From assembly GCA_902782465.1 (NCBI GenBank), contig CACZNH010000020.1:40111-104110 (forward strand): a stretch of 64,000 nt of DNA, read 5' to 3'. The translations under genes were made by a program, and so were the position numbers. The notes below the pieces were generated by a model, which did not search any database, had not been told where the DNA came from, and saw nothing but the letters and a program-made list of their open reading frames with translations. This DNA is from an uncultured Bacteroidales bacterium. GTDB lineage: Bacteria; Bacteroidota; Bacteroidia; Bacteroidales; Muribaculaceae. Positions within the stretch are counted from its first letter, which is position 1. Each line of letters opens with the position of its first letter. This document shows positions 2,561 through 19,595 of the stretch, piece after piece.

Positions 2561-5116
2561 TTACCCGATAATCAGGTCGATGATCACGTTGATGTCGGCG
2601 ATGTTGACGGTGCCGTCGCCGTTCACGTCCCCATTGGGAGAGTAGGTGCCGCTCAGAATCATGCTGATGACGGCGTTGATGTCGCTGATGTTGACGGTGC
2701 CGTCGCCATTGACGTCACCGCTGATGGCGGCATTCTCCCGATAGACAAACGAGATGACAGGGCCATAGGCCGTGGTGTGGCTGTTGCCGTCAAAGTCCAG
2801 ATAGCTGGTTCTGCAGCGGGCGTAATAGGTGGCGCCGTCCTCAAGCAGTTTGTTGTTTACCTTGATTTGCTCAGCGGGCAGGGTAGTCTCGCTCTGGCCG
2901 TTCTTCAGCGTCTCGATGAATCGGGAGCGTCCCCAAGTGGTCTCGCTGTGCGATACCTCGATGACATAGGTCGTTGCCCACTGCTGGGCCTTCACGGCGA
3001 TGTGCTGACCCTTGTAGAGCACGCCACCGTCAACGGGAACGATGAAGCGGGCTGCGGCATGGGCCACCGAGAAGCGCACCACGTTGCTGGTCATCATCTC
3101 TCCGTCAGCGCTGAGGGTAACGCGCATAAAGTAGGTGTTGCCCGCTTCCAACACGTCATCGGGGATGACGAGCGAGCCGGTCGCTGATGTTCCTGTATAA
3201 ACTGGATTGGCAAAGCTGTCGTCCATAGCGACCTCCAGCGTGGCGACCTCGCTGCTGCCGCAGGTGTACCACTCGACGGTGACGGGCACGTCAAGGTCCT
3301 CAGTGCCGTCGGCTGGGGCGGTGATGGTAAGCAGCATGGGGGTAACACGGCGCACCTCGCTCACGCCGCTGTAACAGTCGTCGGCACGCGACTGCACACG
3401 CCAGTAATAGGTCTCGCCATGCGTCAGTTTGTGGAACTGCAGCACGCTGGCCACCGTGTCGGTCACGCTGACGCGCTCCAGCACGTTGCTGAAGTTGGCG
3501 CTGGTGCATACCTCGACGTCATAGCTCGTGGCGCCTTCCACTTTGTACCATTTGAACTGGAACGGGGCGTCAACCGTGGCGCCGTCCTCGGGGCTGATGA
3601 GCACGGGGTTGTCGAGCTGCTCGAGCTCCACGCTCAGGAAGGCGGGTTCCCACTCGTTGCCCACACGGTCGAGCACGCACACCGCAAACTGGTAGCCCTG
3701 CTGGTACTGTTCTGGAATCTCAAATGTTGTCTCGTAGCTCATGCCCAACAGGTAGTCGATTTGGCCGATAAAGGTCGTCGTGTTCATCGTGTTAGGGAAG
3801 GCATAGACCGTGTAGCGCACGTTGTCATAACCAATCCAGCGGATGCTGTTGCCCGTGCGTTCCAGATTCCTGACCGCACCGGGGTTGTAGCCCTCCTTCC
3901 ACGGCATGACGGGCGGCAGGGCAGGCTTGTTGAACACGGTATTCTTGAGGTAGTGCGCTAGCGAGTTGCGGTTGATGGCATACAGGTACTTGCACGAGTA
4001 GAAGATGGCTCCGGGGTTGCCGTCAACCGAGCTGGTGCGGTTGAACTCCACCTCGTCGGCATACTCCTTGTACTGAACCTCGGTCGAGGAGCCCGTCAAA
4101 CCCGAAATGGACGAGGAGATAAACACCTGGCGGCCGAAGTGGGCAGCAATCTGTCCCCACCAGCCGGAAATCTTGCCGTAGTCGTTGGTGCTGTGGCCAA
4201 AGGGCCAATACACCTGCGGCGAGATGTAGTCGATGCTCTGCGACGAGATCCATGCCAGCGGGTCGCTGAAGATGCTGTTGTATTGCCAGTCGCTGCCCGT
4301 GGGACAGGGCTCCACGCCATACTTGTCGGCAACCGTCCGGCTGCTGGCGGCGACACCGGCGGGCGAGATGCCGTAGCGCACCTCGGGCCTGGTCTGCTGA
4401 ATCATGTCATAGACGGCACGCACCATGCGGTTGACGTTGTCGCGGCGCCAGTCTCCAAAGGAGAGGGAAGTCCCCGAGGCCTGCCACTCGCCATAGTCCT
4501 GTGCGCTCGCATCGGCAGGGATGCCGCTGGGATAGAAATAGTCGTCATACAGGATGCCGTCCACGTCATATTTGGTGATGATTTCCTTGCACACCGCCAC
4601 GATGCGGTCGATGGTGCGTTGCTGGCCCGGGTCCAAAATGATGGTCGTTCCGTAAGTCAGCAGCCAGCCGTTCTCCTTGAGCTCGCGGTCCTGGGGCGTG
4701 TTCCAGTCCGTTCCCGTGCTCCAGCGGTAGGGGTTCACCCAGGCATGGCACTCCATGCCGCGCATGTGGCAGCCCTCCACAACATACTGCAGCGGGTCAA
4801 ATCCCGGGTTAGCACCGCGCGTGCCGGTCAGGTAACTCGACCACGGCTCATAACTCGACTGGTACATGGCGTCGCACATCGAGCGCACCTGGAAATTTAC
4901 CGCGTTGAAGTTGTTGGCCTTGAGAGAGTCGAGCAGGCGGTCCATTTCGGCCATCTGTTTGTCAGGACCTGCACCTTGCGAGGGCCAGTCCAGACACCAC
5001 ACTGTGGCGACCCATGCCGAGCGGAACTCACGCTTGGGCATACCCCAAGCCCACACCTGCGACATCACTGCCGACAACAGCAACAAGAAAACGAGACAAG
5101 ATAAATAACGTTTCAT
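2561..5116 (-). CDS. Secreted GHL10 glycosyl hydrolase-like protein with dockerin
   Basis: 851 residues. A signal peptide (about 1-23, ending QVWA) leads into a GHL10 domain (about 28-395). FRSAWVATVWCLDWPS, NFNAVNFQVR, CHAWVNPYRW and DGILYDDYFYP are the conserved barrel strands of this family, which is related to amidases and hydrolases acting on bacterial envelopes or glycans. Three fibronectin-III/Ig-like modules follow (about 495-790), with repeated TYYWRV, TYFMRV and TYYARC strands. A paired type I dockerin (about 798-851, DVNGDGTVNI twice) ends two residues after the last helix. The substrate is unknown. It stands alone with its own promoter at 5164-5194. The C-terminal end type is shared with the LRR and amylase proteins of this window. 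Confidence 0.85.
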   Translation of the reverse strand: MKRYLSCLVFLLLLSAVMSQVWAWGMPKREFRSAWVATVWCLDWPSQGAGPDKQMAEMDRLLDSLKANNFNAVNFQVRSMCDAMYQSSYEPWSSYLTGTRGANPGFDPLQYVVEGCHMRGMECHAWVNPYRWSTGTDWNTPQDRELKENGWLLTYGTTIILDPGQQRTIDRIVAVCKEIITKYDVDGILYDDYFYPSGIPADASAQDYGEWQASGTSLSFGDWRRDNVNRMVRAVYDMIQQTRPEVRYGISPAGVAASSRTVADKYGVEPCPTGSDWQYNSIFSDPLAWISSQSIDYISPQVYWPFGHSTNDYGKISGWWGQIAAHFGRQVFISSSISGLTGSSTEVQYKEYADEVEFNRTSSVDGNPGAIFYSCKYLYAINRNSLAHYLKNTVFNKPALPPVMPWKEGYNPGAVRNLERTGNSIRWIGYDNVRYTVYAFPNTMNTTTFIGQIDYLLGMSYETTFEIPEQYQQGYQFAVCVLDRVGNEWEPAFLSVELEQLDNPVLISPEDGATVDAPFQFKWYKVEGATSYDVEVCTSANFSNVLERVSVTDTVASVLQFHKLTHGETYYWRVQSRADDCYSGVSEVRRVTPMLLTITAPADGTEDLDVPVTVEWYTCGSSEVATLEVAMDDSFANPVYTGTSATGSLVIPDDVLEAGNTYFMRVTLSADGEMMTSNVVRFSVAHAAARFIVPVDGGVLYKGQHIAVKAQQWATTYVIEVSHSETTWGRSRFIETLKNGQSETTLPAEQIKVNNKLLEDGATYYARCRTSYLDFDGNSHTTAYGPVISFVYRENAAISGDVNGDGTVNISDINAVISMILSGTYSPNGDVNGDGTVNIADINVIIDLIIG

Positions 5117-5609: not shown

Positions 5610-5645
5610 CCACAAGAACAGTAACCTCAAAAATCATTGACAAAT

Positions 5646-8294
5646 ATGAAACGATTCATCCAAACAACCCTACTGCTGCTAGCCCTCCTGCTCCCAGCAA
5701 CCGCTCACGGCTTCGAGGTCGATGGCATTTTCTACGATATCACCAGCGATACAACGGTAACGGTTCTAGGTGGTCAAGGAAGCGACATTGTCATCCCCGA
5801 GACCGTAACCTACAACGACACAACCTACACTGTCACTGCCATCGGCGACAATGCGTTTGCAACAAGTGAAATAACAAGAGTAGTTATCGGGGATAGTGTG
5901 AAATCGGTGGGTCGGTATGCTTTCGTAAATTGTACTGGACTAAAGAATGTTACTATCGGCAAATCTGTTCCTACACTTAGATATAGGAAAGGTGCTGCTT
6001 ATTTCTATGCATTTAAAGGCTGTGACAATATCACCTCATTGACATGGAATGCCGTTAATTGTACTGATATGGGTAATATGGGCACGACAAATATCGAACA
6101 GGTGACCATCGGTCCCGAAGTGCAATCGCTTCCCAACAACTTTGTTAAGGAGTCAAAGATATGTGAGGTAAACATTCCCAACTCGGTCATTTCCATCGGC
6201 AGTAGCGCATTTCAGCAATGTTATTACCTGGAAAGGATGAATATTTCCAACTCAGTCACGACCATAGGCAGTTCAGCGTTTGCAGAGTGTTATGGACTGA
6301 CAAACGTTGAAATTCCCAATTCGGTCATTACTATCGGCGGTGCAGCATTTGCCTCATGCTGTTACATTACGACGTTATCAATCGGTAATAGTGTTACCAC
6401 AATAGGAAGCAAAGCATTCTTTGAATGCTATTCTCTCAGAAGCATCGACATACCCAATTCGGTCACCACTATTGGTGATGGCGCATTTGCGAATTGCTAC
6501 TCGATGTCAGGTGTCACTATTGGGAACTCGGTGACATCCATTGGAGGTGCGGCATTTGCCGACTGTAAGAGAATTGAAGAAATCAATATCCCTAGTTCTG
6601 TAACTCAAATTTCTAGTGGGGCTTTTAGAGGTTGTGAGAACTTGTCAAAAGTCCATATTACAAGTCTCGAAGCATGGTGTAGTATTTCATTTGATTATCC
6701 TTCTTCTATGTCTGAGAATTATAGAGATGGTACTTCCAATCCGCTCTATTATGCGCACCACCTCTATCTCAATGGCCAGGAAATAACGGATTTGGTCATT
6801 CCTAACTCAGCCACCGCCATCAACGGGTTTGCTTTCATTGGTTGTAGTGGACTGAAGAGCGTGACTCTCCACAACTCCGTTAATTCAATTGGAGAATCGG
6901 CGTTTATGGGATGTCGTGGAATTAATAGCCTTACCATCCCCAATTCTGTTACTAGTATCGCATATTGGGCTTTTAAGGATTGCACTGGATTGACTGATGC
7001 CATTATCGGTAACTCTTTAGCTGGTATCGGAGGAAACGCGTTTTCTGGTTGCTCAGAATTGAGAAGCATAATTGTGGCGGACGACAATTCCGTCTATGAC
7101 TCCCGTGAAAACTGTAACGCAATCATTGAGACTGAATCTAATACTTTGATAGTAGGATGTCAAGGCACAATCATTCCCCGGTCCGTCACCAGCATAGCTC
7201 CAGAAGCATTTGAAGGCCGTGGAAACCTGACAAGCATATTCATTCCCAAGACTGTCACTTCCATCGGTATTGAGACTTATTTGGATTATTCATACAATCA
7301 AGAGACTCACAGCACTGACACGGTTTATCGCTATTACTATTATAATCCATTTGCTGCTTGTAGCGCACTGGCGTCTATCATTGTCGAAGAAGGCAATCCT
7401 GTCTATGATTCCCGCGATAACTGTAATGCCATCATCGAAACGGCCACCAATAAGCTGATTGTGGGCTGCAAGAATACCATCATACCCAATACCGTCACAG
7501 CCATCGGTGGCGGTGCGTTCAGAGGGTGTACAGAATTGACCGAGATCAATATACCTAATTCTGTTACAGCCATCGGAGACCGTGACGATTTTTACGGCGC
7601 ATTCGGCGGTTGTACTGGTTTGACAAAGGTGACCTTTGGCAATTCAGTAACAACTATTGGAGATGGCGCTTTTATGAGTTGCACAGGACTGACGAATATA
7701 GATTTGCCATCTTCTCTTACAACTATTGGCGACATGGCCTTCGCTGGTTGCACAGGACTGACGAGCGTTACCATTCCCAACTCGGTTAATTTCGAGTTTT
7801 CGAATGATTATTACGATGTTCAACAGTTCTATAGGTGTACGGGACTGACAAGTGTGACGATTGGTAGTGGCATTACCGAAATGGGTGTCACGTTTTTGGA
7901 GTGTCCAAATATCACTAATGTGACTTGTCTGGCGACAACACCTCCAACATGCCATAGGTTTCAAATGTATGTCAATGGCGAAAGAATAATTGTCGTTGAC
8001 TTTGACAGTGAAGTTTTTGACCAGGCAACACTCTATGTGCCTGCGGCATCACTTGAGGCCTATCAAACGGCATCTGTATGGCGCGGGTTCCAGCACATCG
8101 AGCCGATTCCTGCGGTGACGGGTGATGTGGACGGTGACGGCGTGGTGGGTATCGCTGATATTACTGACCTCATTGATATGCTGCTCAACGGTAATGTCAG
8201 CATCGAGACCTGTCCAGCTGCCGACGTGGATGGCGACGGCATCATCGGCATTGCTGACATCACCGAACTCATCGACACCCTCCTCAACGGCTAA
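5646..8294 (+). CDS. BspA-like leucine-rich repeat surface protein with dockerin
   Basis: 882 residues. Signal peptide about 1-21 (MKRFIQTTLLLLALLLPATA). From about residue 60 to 770 it is built of LRR_5/BspA repeats of about 23 residues with the pattern IPNSVTTIGxxAFxxCxxL, interrupted by two insert loops with VYDSRxNCNAIIET. These folds mediate binding to host proteins or other bacteria. A paired dockerin ends the protein (DVDGDGVVGI and DVDGDGIIGI, about 828-882). ATG 5646 is chosen over an in-frame TTG at 5637 because it starts the signal peptide. Repeats vary at DNA level, so the array is old rather than freshly expanded. The 26-base inverted repeat downstream is the likely terminator. 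Confidence 0.9.
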   Translation: MKRFIQTTLLLLALLLPATAHGFEVDGIFYDITSDTTVTVLGGQGSDIVIPETVTYNDTTYTVTAIGDNAFATSEITRVVIGDSVKSVGRYAFVNCTGLKNVTIGKSVPTLRYRKGAAYFYAFKGCDNITSLTWNAVNCTDMGNMGTTNIEQVTIGPEVQSLPNNFVKESKICEVNIPNSVISIGSSAFQQCYYLERMNISNSVTTIGSSAFAECYGLTNVEIPNSVITIGGAAFASCCYITTLSIGNSVTTIGSKAFFECYSLRSIDIPNSVTTIGDGAFANCYSMSGVTIGNSVTSIGGAAFADCKRIEEINIPSSVTQISSGAFRGCENLSKVHITSLEAWCSISFDYPSSMSENYRDGTSNPLYYAHHLYLNGQEITDLVIPNSATAINGFAFIGCSGLKSVTLHNSVNSIGESAFMGCRGINSLTIPNSVTSIAYWAFKDCTGLTDAIIGNSLAGIGGNAFSGCSELRSIIVADDNSVYDSRENCNAIIETESNTLIVGCQGTIIPRSVTSIAPEAFEGRGNLTSIFIPKTVTSIGIETYLDYSYNQETHSTDTVYRYYYYNPFAACSALASIIVEEGNPVYDSRDNCNAIIETATNKLIVGCKNTIIPNTVTAIGGGAFRGCTELTEINIPNSVTAIGDRDDFYGAFGGCTGLTKVTFGNSVTTIGDGAFMSCTGLTNIDLPSSLTTIGDMAFAGCTGLTSVTIPNSVNFEFSNDYYDVQQFYRCTGLTSVTIGSGITEMGVTFLECPNITNVTCLATTPPTCHRFQMYVNGERIIVVDFDSEVFDQATLYVPAASLEAYQTASVWRGFQHIEPIPAVTGDVDGDGVVGIADITDLIDMLLNGNVSIETCPAADVDGDGIIGIADITELIDTLLNG

Positions 8295-8300
8295 AGTCAA

Positions 8301-8381
8301 GAAGACAAGAAAGACAAGAAGGACAAACTATTAACGTACAACGTCATTAATGGAATTGTCCTTCTTGTCTTTCTTGTCTTC
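8301..8381. terminator. Very long perfect inverted repeat between converging genes
   Basis: A purine-rich arm (8301-8326, GAAGACAAGAAAGACAAG...) is matched base for base over 26 bases by the pyrimidine-rich arm 8356-8381. The 29-base loop contains a smaller partial palindrome around ACGT. It lies 7 bases after the LRR stop and serves the convergent SRPBCC gene from the other side, so it probably acts as a bidirectional terminator. The all-purine/all-pyrimidine bias is unusual. Confidence 0.75.
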
Positions 8382-8880: not shown

Positions 8881-8931
8881 TATTTTGAGTTAACGGTTAA
8901 TAGTTAACAGTTAGTAGACGATAATAGGCAG

Positions 8932-9716: not shown

Positions 9717-10679
9717 CTAATAGTTCATGGCGACCCTGAAGCCTAGATAGTCTTCTTTAGCCAGCGGGTCGGCCATCAGGCGGAAGGCGTTGCGGCACTG
9801 ACTTGCATAGAAACTCCAGGCACCGCTGCGATAGACGTTGTCATAGCCTGATTCAGGGCCGACGGGATTGATAAACGCCCCCTCGAGATAGCCCGAGTAC
9901 CAGTCCTGGCACCACTCGCACACGTTTCCGCTCATGTCATAGATTCCTAGCTCGTTGGGCATTTTGCTGGCGACGGCATGGGTGGTCTCGCCGCTGTTGT
10001 CGATATACCAGGCGACGTCATCAACGATGTTGCTGCCCGAGTATTTATAAGCACGGCTCTTGGTGCCGCCACGAGCGGCAAACTCCCATTCGGCCTCGGT
10101 GGGCAGACGGAACGACTTGCCCGTGATTTCAGACAGCTTGTCCACGAACCGTGCGCAGTCAAACATCGACACCATCTCGACGGGCCGTTTCGGGTCGCCT
10201 GTGAATTTGCTGGGATTTGTGCCCATGACCGCTTGCCACAACTCCTGTGTGACTTCAGTTTCACAGATGTAGTAGCTCCACACTGTCACCTCGTGGACAG
10301 GACCCTCGTTGCGGAATACGTCGGGCCATTGGTCGGGTGTGCAGCCCATCTTGAAGGTGCCGCCTTTGACAAACACCATCTTGATGTCCACGCCGTTGAT
10401 GGTGAAGGCCACGTCTTGGTCCTGAGGCGTCGATGGCATCATCAGCAAGTCGATGAGGGCCGTCACGTCCGATATGGTCACGAATCCGTCACCGTCCACG
10501 TCACAAACCATGTCAGCTGCCGTTTCATAACTACTTAACAGGCAGTCAATTATCGTGGTGATATCAGAGATGCCGACTTTCCCGTCCCCATCTACATCCC
10601 CGGCAATATTCGAAGCCGAGGTATCTAACGGCCATGACAGCATCATGGCGCAAAATGCTATGAGAAATAGATTTTTCAT
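9717..10679 (-). CDS. Secreted dockerin / FGE-sulfatase-domain protein
   Basis: 320 residues. Signal peptide about 1-22 (ending TSAS), then a paired type I dockerin at the N-terminus (DVDGDGKVGI and DVDGDGFVTI, about 27-80), then an FGE-sulfatase (SUMF1-type) domain. The latter shows GGTFKMG, the ETEVTQELWQAVMG helix, SFRLPTEAEWEFAARGG, GNVCEWCQDWY and a final LGFRVAMNY. True formylglycine-generating enzymes need two nearby cysteines close to the C-terminal RGGS motif. Here only one (ASQCRN) is visible, so catalysis on sulfatases is doubtful and a structural or binding role is more likely. The domain order, dockerin first, is uncommon. Confidence 0.85.
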   Translation of the reverse strand: MKNLFLIAFCAMMLSWPLDTSASNIAGDVDGDGKVGISDITTIIDCLLSSYETAADMVCDVDGDGFVTISDVTALIDLLMMPSTPQDQDVAFTINGVDIKMVFVKGGTFKMGCTPDQWPDVFRNEGPVHEVTVWSYYICETEVTQELWQAVMGTNPSKFTGDPKRPVEMVSMFDCARFVDKLSEITGKSFRLPTEAEWEFAARGGTKSRAYKYSGSNIVDDVAWYIDNSGETTHAVASKMPNELGIYDMSGNVCEWCQDWYSGYLEGAFINPVGPESGYDNVYRSGAWSFYASQCRNAFRLMADPLAKEDYLGFRVAMNY

Positions 10680-11678: not shown

Positions 11679-12165
11679 ACCCAAACAGCCGCTCACGGCC
11701 AGTCAAGCACTCAACCGTGCCGCGGCCTTGTGTGCCCGCAGCGAGCAGTCCTCGGGTGACATCCGCGAGAAACTGCTCAAGTGGGGACTGTGCAGCAATG
11801 ATGCAGCTCACGTCCTGCAGCAGCTGGTGGAACAGGGATTTATTGATGACAGCCGTTATGCCAGGGCCTTTGTCAAGGACCGCTTTGCCTTCAATGGTTG
11901 GGGGCGCATCAAAATCGCACACCAGCTTCGCACGAAGGGCATCCCCAGCGATGCCATCGACGAGGCGATGACTGCCATCGACGAGGAACGCTACCGCGAA
12001 CGGTTGGCGGAACTGCTCCAAGCCAAGTGGCGTACCGTCAAGGACCGCGAACCCCGTGCAGCATGGGCGGCGATGATGCGGTTTGCCGCATCCAGGGGCT
12101 TCGAGGCGTCAATAGCGGGAGAATGTGTCAAACAAGTGACCCGGATTGATGTGGAAGACGATTAG
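11671..12165 (+). CDS. recX: Regulatory protein RecX
   Basis: 164 residues, the usual size. The three-helix repeats of RecX are visible: RAAALCARSEQSSGDIREKLLKWG, then VEQGFIDDSRYARAFVKDR followed by GRIKIAHQLRTKGI, and a third repeat RYRERLAELLQAKW. RecX binds RecA filaments and limits their activity. The ATG lies 8 bases inside the patatin gene, and the stop lies inside the start of comF, indicating translational coupling. Its presence next to a window that begins with recR is coincidental; they are not in one operon. Confidence 0.9.
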   Translation: MNKPKQPLTASQALNRAAALCARSEQSSGDIREKLLKWGLCSNDAAHVLQQLVEQGFIDDSRYARAFVKDRFAFNGWGRIKIAHQLRTKGIPSDAIDEAMTAIDEERYRERLAELLQAKWRTVKDREPRAAWAAMMRFAASRGFEASIAGECVKQVTRIDVEDD

Positions 12166-12856
12166 ACAATGGCTGGGGGCTGCCACCGACGTGGTCTTGC
12201 CGCGCATCTGTCCGGTGTGCGGGCAAACGCTTGACGGCGACGAGGCATGGCTGTGCCGCAAGTGCCTGGCAGGATTGCCGCGTACGCGCTATGAAGAGGT
12301 GCCGTTCAACAGCATGGAGCAGCACTTTGCCGGCAAGGTGCCCATCGAACGAGCCACGGCCTACTTCTTCTACGAGAAAGGCTCGCCCTACGCATCTATC
12401 CTTCACGACATCAAGTACCATGGTATCCCCACCATGGGGCGCTGGCTCACCTCTCGCGCGGTGCAAGACATGGCCGCTAGCCATTTCTTTGACGGCATCG
12501 ATGTGGTCACCGCCGTCCCCCTGCATCGCAGCCGTCTTGCCCACCGTGGCTACAACCAGAGCAAATACCTCGCCTGCGGCATCGCCGATAGCCTGAACAT
12601 ACCATATGTAGAAGCCTTAAAAGCCGTACGTCCACATACCACTCAGACCCATAAAGGCGCCCTTGAACGCTGGCAAAACATCCAGGACAACTACGTCCTG
12701 AAAAAAGACGCCGACCAGTTGGCCGGCAAACACATCCTCCTTGTCGATGACGTCGTGACGACCGGTTCCACCCTCACCGTCTGCGCCATCCTGCTGAAAA
12801 GCATCCCTAATGTGAAGGTTTCACTCTTCACTCTCGCCGCTGCGCGACTCGAGTAA
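12149..12856 (+). CDS. ComF family phosphoribosyltransferase-like protein
   Basis: 235 residues. An N-terminal zinc-ribbon with CPVC and CRKC (cysteines near 21, 24, 36 and 39) is followed by a phosphoribosyltransferase fold ending in the PRPP loop ILLVDDVVTTGSTL (about 195-208). ComF proteins act in DNA uptake, with ComFA, in naturally competent species. In Bacteroidales the partner is usually missing and the role is unknown. ATG 12149 is preferred to TTG 12146 just before it; both lie inside the end of recX. It closes the patatin-recX-comF operon. Confidence 0.88.
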   Translation: MWKTIRQWLGAATDVVLPRICPVCGQTLDGDEAWLCRKCLAGLPRTRYEEVPFNSMEQHFAGKVPIERATAYFFYEKGSPYASILHDIKYHGIPTMGRWLTSRAVQDMAASHFFDGIDVVTAVPLHRSRLAHRGYNQSKYLACGIADSLNIPYVEALKAVRPHTTQTHKGALERWQNIQDNYVLKKDADQLAGKHILLVDDVVTTGSTLTVCAILLKSIPNVKVSLFTLAAARLE

Positions 12857-12863
12857 ATTTGAA

Positions 12864-12957
12864 ACAGTGGAGGAATTTTTCATTGTCAAAATGAAAAATT
12901 GTGGAAAGGTGGAGGAGTTTTTTATTGCATCGCAATAAAAACTGTGGAGAAGAATAA
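12864..12957. repeat. Left flank of the four-helix-bundle gene: boxes alternating with hairpins
   Basis: Reading toward the gene: box C (ACAGTGGAGGA, 12864-12874); an 11-base hairpin AATTTTTCATT/AATGAAAAATT (12874-12900); box B (TGTGGAAAGGT, 12900-12910, then TGGAGGA); a hairpin TTTTTATTGC/GCAATAAAAA (12917-12942); box A (ACTGTGGAGAAGAATAA, 12941-12957). The same three boxes return inverted and in mirror order on the far side of the gene. Confidence 0.8.
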
Positions 12958-13005
12958 TTATGTGACAGTAAATATAGTTTTAAACACAAGATAAAAATTT
13001 AGAAT

Positions 13006-13374
13006 ATGGACATGATATATCATTTTGAACGGCTTGAGGTCTTTAAGCAAGCCCGCCAGTTGGTGAAGGAAATCTACAAACTCAGCATGAAATTTCCTTC
13101 AGAAGAGCGTTTTGCGCTTTGCAGCCAGCTGCGACGCGCTGCGATTTCAATCCCATCGAACATCGCTGAAGGTGTGGGCAGGCTGTCACCAAAGGAAACT
13201 ACACATTTTCTTGAAATATCTTATGGGTCCTTGATGGAAACCTACTGCCAGTTGCAAATAGCATTAGATCTCATGTATATTACAGAAGAGGACCTAAATC
13301 AAGTTAAACCCATGATTTTTGCAACATCCCGAATGCTTAATGGTCTGCACAAATCATTCTTGTCCAAGCAGTAA
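13006..13374 (+). CDS. Four-helix-bundle protein (23S rRNA intervening-sequence protein family)
   Basis: 122 residues. The family pattern is clear: FERLEVFKQARQLVKEIYKL in helix 1, then FPSEERFALCSQLRRAAISIPSNIAEGVGR, the most conserved segment of the S23/IVP family, then helices with THFLEISYGSLMETYCQLQIA and LNQVKPMIFATSRMLNGLHKS. Relatives are encoded inside intervening sequences of 23S rRNA genes, and a distant relative (Avd) assists diversity-generating retroelements. Here the gene stands alone, between comF and rpoZ, framed by mirror-image repeat arrays at 12864-12957 and 13385-13483. ATG 13012 is an alternative start. G+C is lower than in its neighbours, suggesting it arrived as a unit. 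Its function is unknown. Confidence 0.9.
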   Translation: MDMIYHFERLEVFKQARQLVKEIYKLSMKFPSEERFALCSQLRRAAISIPSNIAEGVGRLSPKETTHFLEISYGSLMETYCQLQIALDLMYITEEDLNQVKPMIFATSRMLNGLHKSFLSKQ

Positions 13375-13443
13375 AAAAGGAAGGTTATTTCTTCTCCACA
13401 GTCGTTGCGCTACAGCGCAACGACACCTTAACCTTTCCACAAA

Positions 13444-13472
13444 AAAAACGGCACCAATAAGGTGCCGTTTTT
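13444..13472. terminator. Bidirectional terminator hairpin
   Basis: AAAAACGGCACC (13444-13455) pairs over 12 bases with GGTGCCGTTTTT (13461-13472). The T run follows on the plus strand, and an A run precedes it that becomes a T run on the minus strand. It would end the four-helix-bundle transcript and back up the terminator of rpoZ. Confidence 0.75.
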
Positions 13473-13481
13473 GCCTCCACA

Positions 13482-13512
13482 GTTAACGGCGCCCCACTTG
13501 GGCGCCGTTAAC
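13482..13512 (-). terminator. Hairpin just after rpoZ
   Basis: A perfect 12-base stem GTTAACGGCGCC/GGCGCCGTTAAC with a 7-base loop lies 3 bases beyond the rpoZ stop. There is no long T run directly after it, so it may work together with the 13444-13472 hairpin. Confidence 0.55.
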
Positions 13513-13515
13513 TTA

Positions 13516-13848
13516 TCAAAATTCCTCTTTTTCTTTCGCCAGGTTGCGGTAGGCGAGTTTGTCTTCCAGATATTCTTGGGTCGCTATCAGCGTGGGCTTG
13601 GGCAGTTTCTCGTAATACTTCGAGATTTCTATCTGCTCACGGTTCTCGCTGATTTCCTCAAGGTTGTCGTTCAGGGTGGCAAACTCCTGAAGCTTCTTCT
13701 CAAGGTCCGACTTCATCTCGGCGGCAATCTGGTTGGCACGTTTGCTGATGATGCAGACGGTCTCATAGATGTTGCCCGTGGGTTCTGCCATCTCGATGAT
13801 GTCATGAACGGTAGTGGTGAGTGGCGCGTTAGTCTTCTTGTAATCCAT
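13516..13848 (-). CDS. rpoZ: RNA polymerase omega-like subunit (Rpb6 type)
   Basis: 110 residues. The Bacteroidetes-type omega sequence is recognisable: MDYKKTNAPLTTTVHDI at the start, GNIYETVCIISKRANQI (the Rpb6/omega core helix, about 26-42), KKLQEFATLNDNLEEISENREQIEISKYYEKLPKPTLIA. It binds the beta' subunit of RNA polymerase and helps assembly. It follows bamD by about 50 bases on the same strand, a common order in Bacteroidales, and shares the promoter at 14734-14765. Confidence 0.88.
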   Translation of the reverse strand: MDYKKTNAPLTTTVHDIIEMAEPTGNIYETVCIISKRANQIAAEMKSDLEKKLQEFATLNDNLEEISENREQIEISKYYEKLPKPTLIATQEYLEDKLAYRNLAKEKEEF

Positions 13849-16543: not shown

Positions 16544-16624
16544 TGGGTTGATATTTTTCCCTACAATGGAACGTGCGGTAACTGTTCCTGTTTTGATTAC
16601 AGAATTAACTAAATATTGATTAAC

Positions 16625-18607
16625 ATGAGATTAACTACACTTTTCTCGTTGATTGTCTTATCAACAATGACGGCGTTGGCTGGTCCGCGTCAGTATGCTA
16701 GTAACATCATCGGGGATGTGAATGGTGACGGTATGGTCACCATTGCCGACGTGAACGTGGTTGTCGGCGATATCCTCGGTGGCAAGTGGAACCCTGCCAG
16801 TGATGTCAACAATGACGGATCGGTCACTGTAGCCGACATCAACATGCTGGTGAACATCATCCTCAACGGTCCTGAAACCCCTGTTGCCGACACTGGCATG
16901 TACATGGGTGTTCTGGGTTACAACCAGTTGCTTACCATCAAACCCATTGCCCTGCTTGACTCGGCATCGGTTGGCGAATTCACCTCCTTCGTTAACGATT
17001 TGGACACGCAGCCCGGAAGATTGCTCTATCACTCGGTAAATAAGGCGCTTAATGACCTCGGAAAGGCCATCTGCCCCGAGAATCTGCAGAATGTGGCCAT
17101 CGTCACCTTTACCGGAGGTCTTGACCAGGGTTCGCTGATGATGACCGACCTGTATGACACCGAGGCCGAGTATGCCCAGGCTCTGCATGAGCGCATCCTC
17201 GACCAGCGCGTCTATGGCCGTGCCATCAAGGCTTACACCGTTGGCCTGCTCAGCGATAACGTCAAGGACGAGACGCAGTTCCTGGCCAACCTCGAAGCCC
17301 TGTCCAGTGACGCTGACAAGGCAATGGTAGTGAACAACATGGCCGAGGTGAACACCCGCTTCCAGTCCATCGCCGATGACCTGGTGCGCCGCAACATGTC
17401 CGAGACGCTCACGCTCGTCTTCCCCGGTGTGGGAACGGGCACCCGCATCCGTTTCACCCTTGACGAGGTGGATGGTGCAACGGTCGACAACTCCCAGGTC
17501 TATATCGAGGGCACCTTCTCGCTCAAGAACAGGACCCTCACCGACATCACCTATCACGGCCTGACCTGCACCGCCGGCAACAAGGTGACCGCATCGAGTG
17601 TTGACGGTATGTTCGTCACGATGGTCTTCCCCGGCATCCAGCTCGACAACGAGGAGCGCATCGACAAAAAGAACATCCAGGAATGGTATTTGGTCGAGGG
17701 CCAGAACACCTGGCAGCCCAGCACCGAGTTCCAGGCTTCGCGTCTGCCCGACATCGAGAGCACCTACTCGAGCGCACTGGTGATGCTGCTGCTCGATTGC
17801 AGCACGGTAGTGGGCGAGGACTTTGAAGACCTCCAGGCTGCTGCCAACTCCTTCATCGAGCGCATGGAGAACTACAACACCATTCCCGGTATGTTCACCG
17901 TTAACGGTGTTTCGTTCAGGATGATTTCGGTTGACGGTGGCACCTTCGCCATGGGCTCTGACATGGAGACTGCAATGGCTGGCGATGCCAACTTCGACGA
18001 GGCTCCCGCACACGAGGTGACCCTCTCGCCCTACAGCATCGGCCAGACCGAGGTGACCCAGGAGCTCTGGCAGGCTGTCATGGGCAGCAATCCCAGTGGT
18101 TTCACCGGCGACCTGCAGCGTCCTGTTGAGCAGGTGAGCTGGGAGGATTGCCAGGAGTTCATTGCACGCCTCAACGCCATCACCGGCAAGCAGTTCCGTC
18201 TGCCCACCGAGGCCGAGTGGGAATTTGCAGCCCGTGGCGGTATCAAGTCGGCAGGTAAGACCTATGCCGGCAGCAACAACCTCGATGAGGTGGCATGGTA
18301 CTATGGCAACAGCTATGGCTTGGGCGCAGATAGCCCCGATTATGGCACGCATCCCGTGGCCACGAAGTATGCCAACGAGCTGGGCCTCTATGACATGTGT
18401 GGTAACGTCTATGAGTGGGTCAACGACTGGTATGGCGCTTACAGTGATGAGCCCCAGACCGATCCTCAGGGTCCCGAAACCGGTTTGCGCCGTGTAACCC
18501 GTGGCGGCAGCTGGTACAGCAACGAACTTGACAGCCGCGTGAACTGCCGCAACTACGAGTCGGTCGGCAGCCGCAGCTACTCGCTCGGTCTGCGTCTGGC
18601 CCTCTAA
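16625..18607 (+). CDS. Secreted dockerin / vWA-like / FGE-sulfatase-domain protein
   Basis: 660 residues. Signal peptide about 1-20, paired dockerin at about 30-85 (DVNGDGMVTI, DVNNDGSVTV), a middle domain of about 300 residues, and a C-terminal FGE-sulfatase domain (about 420-660) with GGTFAMGS, the QTEVTQELWQAVMG helix, RLPTEAEWEFAARGG, GNVYEWVNDWYG and RGGSWYSNELDSRVNCRN. The middle part (LLDSASVGEFTSFVNDL, NVAIVTFTGGLDQGSLM, GRAIKAYTVGL) looks like a von Willebrand A-type fold, but the DxSxS metal site is not canonical. Only one of the two FGE cysteines is present. ATG 16625 begins the signal peptide; TTG 16616 upstream was discarded. It is the larger sibling of the 9717-10679 protein. 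Confidence 0.82.
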   Translation: MRLTTLFSLIVLSTMTALAGPRQYASNIIGDVNGDGMVTIADVNVVVGDILGGKWNPASDVNNDGSVTVADINMLVNIILNGPETPVADTGMYMGVLGYNQLLTIKPIALLDSASVGEFTSFVNDLDTQPGRLLYHSVNKALNDLGKAICPENLQNVAIVTFTGGLDQGSLMMTDLYDTEAEYAQALHERILDQRVYGRAIKAYTVGLLSDNVKDETQFLANLEALSSDADKAMVVNNMAEVNTRFQSIADDLVRRNMSETLTLVFPGVGTGTRIRFTLDEVDGATVDNSQVYIEGTFSLKNRTLTDITYHGLTCTAGNKVTASSVDGMFVTMVFPGIQLDNEERIDKKNIQEWYLVEGQNTWQPSTEFQASRLPDIESTYSSALVMLLLDCSTVVGEDFEDLQAAANSFIERMENYNTIPGMFTVNGVSFRMISVDGGTFAMGSDMETAMAGDANFDEAPAHEVTLSPYSIGQTEVTQELWQAVMGSNPSGFTGDLQRPVEQVSWEDCQEFIARLNAITGKQFRLPTEAEWEFAARGGIKSAGKTYAGSNNLDEVAWYYGNSYGLGADSPDYGTHPVATKYANELGLYDMCGNVYEWVNDWYGAYSDEPQTDPQGPETGLRRVTRGGSWYSNELDSRVNCRNYESVGSRSYSLGLRLAL

Positions 18608-19543: not shown

Positions 19544-19595
19544 CTTTTTTCTAAAAGCTAAAAGCCTAAAGCCTAATAGCTTACTAAAAGCATAA

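Follow-up and report, generated by a model that had tools for sequence, protein, structure and literature searches.

Inverted repeat arrays around a solitary four-helix-bundle gene: a probable free-standing relative of rRNA intervening sequences and its putative gene-less derivatives

Analysis of a 64-kb window (the whole stretch of DNA that was analysed, 64,000 nucleotides) uncovered an element in which a gene for a four-helix-bundle protein of the PF05635 family is placed between two inverted arrays of short repeats. This element is probably, at roughly 60%, a free-standing relative of the intervening sequences (IVSs) of 23S rRNA, with gene-less derivatives that would stand to it as REPINs stand to RAYTs. 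The general layout, seen well beyond the window, is a PF05635 gene between inverted arrays of G-rich short units, mostly 7 nt long. A broader and more tentative reading, to which slightly under even odds are given, is that PF05635 genes with inverted heptad arms constitute a distinct class of elements that spans phyla, the rRNA IVS being merely the version that came to lie in rRNA. According to it, an oligomer of the four-helix protein would read the 7-nt unit, keep the arms alike and spread gene-less pairs, and would in this way be the source of bacterial heptameric repeats.

The gene, the one PF05635 gene of the window, lies at 13006..13374 on the + strand and encodes a protein of 122 aa that matches PF05635 (23S_rRNA_IVP) with an E value of 7e-37 and TIGR02436 with one of 1e-33. 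The remaining profile matches were to NCBIfam four-helix families and, weakly, to bAvd (PF22296; E 3e-5, under the curated cut-off), and no transposase domain, tyrosine transposases included, was found in the protein. The nearest solved structure by sequence is XCC0516 (2gsc; E 2e-22), which, judging from its tag, is presumably from Xanthomonas campestris; the entry has five chains, and the 122-aa protein is perhaps a pentamer. The protein is under purifying selection, with dN/dS between 0.03 and 0.25 in 13 of 14 pairs and undefined in the other one. Phage records yielded no relative of the protein at E 1e-3.

The left arm of the window copy (12864..12957), which is G-rich on the + strand, consists of boxes C (12864-12873), B (12900-12917) and A (12941-12957), separated by an outer hairpin between C and B (12874..12900; 11-bp arms, 5-nt loop) and an inner hairpin between B and A (12919..12941; 10-bp arms, 3-nt loop). 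The right arm (13385..13483) is inverted with respect to the left one and contains boxes A' (13385-13402), B' (13425-13441) and C' (13473-13483), with an inner hairpin between A' and B' (13401..13424; 11-bp arms, 2-nt loop) and an outer hairpin between B' and C' (13444..13472; 12-bp arms, 5-nt loop). These boxes and hairpins, and their order, had been pointed out in a preliminary description of this DNA; the coordinates agree with it, and the inverted match between the two arms reaches a score of 33, the maximum over 1000 dinucleotide shuffles being 28. When perfect hairpins were defined by an arm of at least 10 and a loop of 2-8, six were counted in the 64-kb window, five of which fall within 12874-13513, and the mean number expected in both arms was 0.003 (300 dinucleotide shuffles). 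Folding of the RNA of 12857-13515, a stretch that includes the terminator hairpin discussed below, gave -225.9 kcal/mol (z -7.4 against 20 shuffles), and in the predicted fold of the element the helices A-A', B-B' and C-C' form with the local hairpins at the junctions. An Rfam search over 12700-13700 returned matches all far under the gathering scores. Joined without the hairpins, the boxes make no strict 7-nt array (p 0.07 on the left, 0.998 on the right). Dispersed copies of this particular repeat were sought via the exact 12-mer CTTCTCCACAGT only, which occurs in just two places of the 94.8% complete source genome, both of them in the arms of the window copy.

The element is inserted between two protein genes of the host. 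To the left lies a ComF-like gene with a phosphoribosyltransferase domain (12146..12856, + strand; PF00156, E 3e-7) and to the right an RNA polymerase omega-like gene with an RNA_pol_Rpb6 domain (13516..13848, - strand; PF01192, E 1e-11). The names comF, ddl, amylase and tRNA-Met given to neighbours are presumptive. The RNA_pol_Rpb6 gene is present in 92 of 101 genomes of the genus, and among the 30 such loci that were viewed there are some in which the ComF-like gene is not adjacent to it. In related species, exemplified by loci L200, L182 and L195, the insert is absent at the comF site, and these empty sites carry one hairpin, a terminator like AACGGCGCC...GGCGCCGTT. Since the outermost hairpin on the right (13481..13513) is also present at insert-free sites, it is the host terminator, belonging to the right-hand neighbour gene and lying outside the element, which ends near 13483. 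The right array proposed earlier is accordingly shortened: A', B', C' and two hairpins stay, and the outermost hairpin is given back to the host. The proposed unit itself, a gene with inverted flanks, holds, and certain related species lack the insert at this site. These sites also bear on the simplest alternative, namely that the hairpins are ordinary terminators of neighbouring genes and that the boxes match by chance. Although 13481-13513 is a terminator and the hairpin 13444-13472 runs into a T stretch at its end, the inverted box match exceeds all 1000 shuffles, the empty sites L200, L182 and L195 show a single terminator hairpin, and two other comF-site copies, L007 and L009, have hairpin-rich arms with different stems. 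On these three grounds plain terminators were rejected as a very improbable explanation.

The comF site holds a PF05635 gene in five other loci (L007, L008, L009, L010 and L013), relative to which the window gene (L001) appears to be turned round. Among the copies whose neighbours were read, a turned gene was seen only in L001 and, at a tRNA site, in L012. At the comF site of another genome (G029, locus L189) a single gene-less heptad array was observed where other species have the PF05635 gene. Six neighbouring ORFs were scanned; they match other families, and none of the six is a reverse transcriptase.

Inverted arms were then found to be a general property of PF05635 genes. The source genome has four PF05635 matches including the window copy; the three others (L002, L003 and L004, the last of which contains a stop) have no CTCCACA boxes, and the inverted arrays on their two sides are built from a different short unit, namely GATTAGA, GTTGTCA/GTTTTCA and GTTAGGA, respectively. 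The survey was extended to 93 copies of the genus (the best-scoring matches plus L004, weaker PF05635 matches being left out) and to 80 loci from named genomes of many phyla, which are not an even sample because they are the best 80 of 581 by likeness to the window protein. Exclusion of copies with a short flank (L142 and L010 of the genus and two of the 80 other loci) left 91 and 78 copies. The upstream flank was aligned with the reverse complement of the downstream flank over 250 nt, and inverted flanks with a score of at least 27 were detected in 81 of the 91 genus copies and 49 of the 78 copies from other taxa, leaving 10 and 29, respectively, under the threshold. Control ORFs of the same loci passed in 7 of 178 cases, two of which (L102 and L054) are PF05635 genes themselves. 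The best period was 7 or 14 in 149/182 genus flanks and 102/156 other flanks, compared with 60/356 control flanks. Read toward the gene, 187 of 201 arrays have more G than C, and C makes up 5.9%. Both arms of one element have one unit in common, and the unit varies between elements.

Examples of such arms come from Bacteroidota, Verrucomicrobia, Deltaproteobacteria, Betaproteobacteria, Clostridia and Nitrospira. They also come from plasmids: 9 of 34 plasmid PF05635 records were viewed, and the arms were clear by eye in seven and weak in L305 and L308. The neighbours of one plasmid PF05635 gene are two ribonucleotide reductase genes, one on each side. In three cyanobacterial plasmids (L301, L302 and L303) a PF05635 gene with heptad arms was observed inside CRISPR operons, twice in the cas6/cas4 interval and once between cas10/cmr2 and a cmr3-family gene. 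A figure legend in PMC10910872 counts the PF05635 family among CRISPR-linked genes, and placements of this kind may be the reason for that listing. The flanks of L033, L019 and L020 display higher-order repeats, in which a heptad array together with a spacer recurs several times to one side of the gene.

The interspersed hairpins turned out to be much less widespread. A count of perfect hairpins in the two 250-nt flanks of each of 172 copies gave none for 125 copies and one for 30; hairpin-rich arms were those of L001, L007 and L009, with 5, 5 and 4 hairpins (host terminator counted), all at the comF site. By eye, the order of boxes and hairpins in L007 is similar, and the stems have other sequences. 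Because hairpin-rich arms occur in 3 of 172 copies and at one site, conserved boxes combined with changing but perfect stems are a local variant. The combination of CTCCACA boxes and intervening hairpins is rejected as the hallmark of the family; this is instead the pair of inverted arrays of a unit about 7 nt long that is not the same in every element. The cassette idea was right in outline, and the class, with arms that recur across phyla, is wider than had been thought.

Heptad arrays also exist apart from the gene. In 464 kb (15%) of the source genome, 57 noncoding period-7 arrays were counted, against 0 to 9 apiece for the other periods between 5 and 12, and shuffled sequence gave no period-7 arrays. 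When neighbouring arrays were less than 150 nt apart, 16 of 19 pairs were convergent and none divergent. The window itself contains gene-less arrays of TAACTCC, the unit as at L004 (27447..27479), of GCTAATC, a unit like that of L002 (23760..23786), and of CTAAAAG (19551..19576). Of the 34 occurrences of the core GCGGATGCC, 8 lie within 40 nt of an array, an enrichment with p 5e-10 (not corrected for the large number of words tried); this core was also present in the flanks of six PF05635 copies of the genus, including L003 of the source genome. The array pairs of the source genome display at least two spacer types, GCGGATGCC versus TACTATCGCCT-like (L208, L209, L217 and L218; L213, L220, L222 and L225), as if there were two families of miniature elements. 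A search for three units in the 101 genomes of the genus gave matches in 37, 51 and 42 genomes, and almost none with the reversed control patterns; the source genome had 239, 227 and 0 matches, which overlap within an array.

Other repeats were observed in the window. At 8293-8380, after a gene end, two imperfect 9-nt repeats, AAAGACAAG / TTGTCTTTC, converge across about 30 nt and resemble the gene-less heptad pairs with a different period, and a short AGTTAAC-type array lies directly upstream of an ORF at 8888-8917. At the protein level, repeats of the DVNGDG/DVDGDG type, which we take to be dockerin-like, are located at one end of the large ORFs 2561-5116, 5637-8294, 9717-10679 and 16616-18607.

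Several comparisons tie the arrays to the gene. Of the 101 genus genomes, 91 contain PF05635, 81 of them with a match over the cut-off; none of the 14 control genomes does. The 10 genus genomes that lack it, four of which are only 75-83% complete, had 2 matches in total to the three patterns, and some matches occurred in 70 of the 91 others (p 7e-5), the remaining 21 showing none of the three; these pattern counts cover all 10 genomes and include a few matches contributed by the arms of the PF05635 genes themselves. When arrays of any unit were counted in DNA samples, one was found in 355 kb of six PF05635-less genomes, compared with 10 in the 292 kb sampled from seven others (p 0.002), the latter number being what was left of 13 arrays after removal of three that were runs of N. 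In addition, genomes that carry a PF05635 gene with a given unit hold more matches to that same unit (p 5e-4, 5e-4 and 3e-9 for the three units, with 4, 4 and 16 genomes per unit, chosen by reading the arrays of fetched copies). Finally, in a Mantel test across different loci, copies with more alike proteins also had more alike arrays (r 0.31, p 0.001), as calculated with the 82 copies that had a usable array among the 89 genus copies without internal stops. Against the tie stand the 21 PF05635 genomes without any of the three patterns, two genomes (G075 and G078) that combine many pattern matches with only weak PF05635 hits, and kinship, which weakens the pattern test as described next.

These comparisons allow a host-side origin of the arrays to be weighed, in which heptads arise and spread alone by slippage and template switching and PF05635 genes do no more than put up with, or favour, intergenic sites that are rich in arrays. 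Slippage homogenises tandem arrays, the source genome has 57 arrays in the 464 kb against 4 PF05635 matches in the genome, and the three-pattern test was weak when restricted to a kinship band of 80-90% identity of the neighbour protein (genomes with matches, 12/26 versus 1/7; p 0.052). These points favour such an origin; it is nevertheless made decidedly unlikely by the control ORFs of the same loci, which mostly have no inverted arms, by the scarcity of arrays in the sampled PF05635-less genomes, by the unit tracking the protein and by the presence of arms in an rRNA copy too.

The link between gene and array was also put to use as a prediction. Because XCC0516 is the nearest structure and its presumed species is rich in GGGAATC repeats, a genome with GGGAATC arrays was sought, and one was found among 369 genomes drawn from the class of G106. 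As predicted, this genome has one PF05635 match, with GGGAATC units on both sides; the match spans part of the profile, so that the frame may be broken, and it has a biotin_lipoyl gene on one side and a biotin carboxylase gene on the other. A gene-less GGGAATC pair of the genome aligns with both ends of the PF05635 element beyond the arrays (with scores that include the arrays), and GGGAATCGTTCAAG is found in just two places, the GGGAATC-flanked PF05635 locus and this gene-less pair. Sequence next to the array is common to gene-less and gene-bearing forms in two genomes. By analogy with REPINs and RAYTs, gene-less pairs may be derivatives of the gene-bearing element.

That analogy can be carried further, to a DNA element of the REPIN/RAYT kind whose single-stranded or cruciform arms are moved or copied by the protein with a host nuclease or polymerase, any effect on RNA being incidental. 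The convergence of the gene-less pairs, the array-adjacent sequence that they have in common with a gene-bearing element, the match between the unit of the resident gene and the dispersed arrays, and the reversal of gene orientation between species at one site are all consistent with this explanation. However, profile matches were limited to PF05635 and a weak bAvd, with no transposase domain found; insert-free sites are too diverged from the filled ones to delimit a target duplication; and among the fetched copies no recent within-genome duplicates were detected above about 72% DNA identity, in a comparison that left out loci corresponding to one place fetched twice. On balance the explanation seems unlikely, if still deserving some weight. 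Of the former proposal of a mobile unit, the outline as a cassette stands; signs of recent mobility were not found, there being no near-identical copies at two sites of one genome among the copies compared.

The preferred reading, a free-standing relative of the rRNA IVS, draws on a copy that is itself in rRNA. The gene of locus L304, from a plasmid of Azospirillum lipoferum, sits within bacterial LSU rRNA and is flanked by the heptad-like arms AGGACGG ATGACAG AGGACGG and their inverse. The suggested tie to 23S rRNA inserts is upheld by this PF05635 insert with inverted short-repeat arms. When 215 loci were compared with two 23S stretches (740 and 742 nt), only L304, itself the source of both stretches, matched, and the window copy did not; with one locus in 215, the rRNA link consists here of one case plus the literature. 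In PMC4990558, the rRNA IVS of Coxiella is described with a 28-bp terminal stem and excision by RNase III in vitro, and the function and origin of rRNA IVSs are called unclear.

A mechanism can be proposed along these lines. By analogy with rRNA IVSs, the arms would pair in a transcript shared with neighbouring genes to form a panhandle, and RNase III would cut the insert out of the transcript; if so, insertion into operons and rRNA would be harmless and tolerated. In the window copy, the hairpins break both arms at matching positions, so that the predicted panhandle would comprise three helices connected through four-way junctions. An oligomer of the four-helix bundle may bind the repeat units, and the PF05635 protein may be needed for keeping or spreading the arrays. 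The arms, which stay alike while changing between species, could be maintained by gene conversion, template switching or protein-driven copying. Should this be correct, rRNA intervening sequences and heptameric intergenic repeats would be joined as two loose ends, and gene-less forms may explain the seven-letter repeats of bacterial genomes. The natural pairs of protein and unit provide material for studying how a 7-nt word could be read by so small a protein (about 120 residues).

Comparison with known systems places the element closest to the 23S rRNA IVS, with which it has in common the PF05635 / S23 protein and an ORF whose flanking terminal inverted repeats can pair into a long stem. It differs in that it lies between protein genes, that its arms are boxes with hairpins and that its excision is proposed by analogy. 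Because the defining position in rRNA is absent, the window element is regarded as a free-standing variant of the rRNA IVS and not as a member. With regard to insertion sequences and MITEs, no transposase domain was found in the protein, and the empty sites are too diverged to delimit a target duplication. To the Avd component of diversity-generating retroelements (bAvd, PF22296) the protein has a weak match (E 3e-5), and no reverse transcriptase is among the six neighbouring ORFs scanned. Like the REPIN/RAYT system as presented in PMC3116915, it combines one gene with inverted short repeats that belong to it. Gene-less inverted doublets with a matching repeat are supported for the heptad-type elements, and for the window copy the exact 12-mer CTTCTCCACAGT was not found elsewhere in the genome. 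In contrast to that system, there is no tyrosine transposase, the unit varies by element and the repeats are mostly period-7 tandem arrays, not one palindrome. Heptameric intergenic repeats are over-represented in bacteria, and Xanthomonas campestris has 186 GGGAATC repeat sites with 70 convergent pairs, according to PMC4692102. The repeats described in two papers (GGGAATC in Xanthomonas and GGGGATT in Nostoc, PMC4692102; TAACTGA in Beggiatoaceae and others, PMC4679880) are likewise dispersed and mostly intergenic 7-nt units, and the Xanthomonas heptads often form convergent inverted pairs, as the gene-less arrays do here (PMC4692102). Neither 'four helix' nor 'S23' occurs in the text of either paper, and for the TAACTGA repeats a regulatory role is proposed instead (PMC4679880). 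What distinguishes the arrays of this study from the heptameric repeats of these two papers is that they are tied to PF05635.
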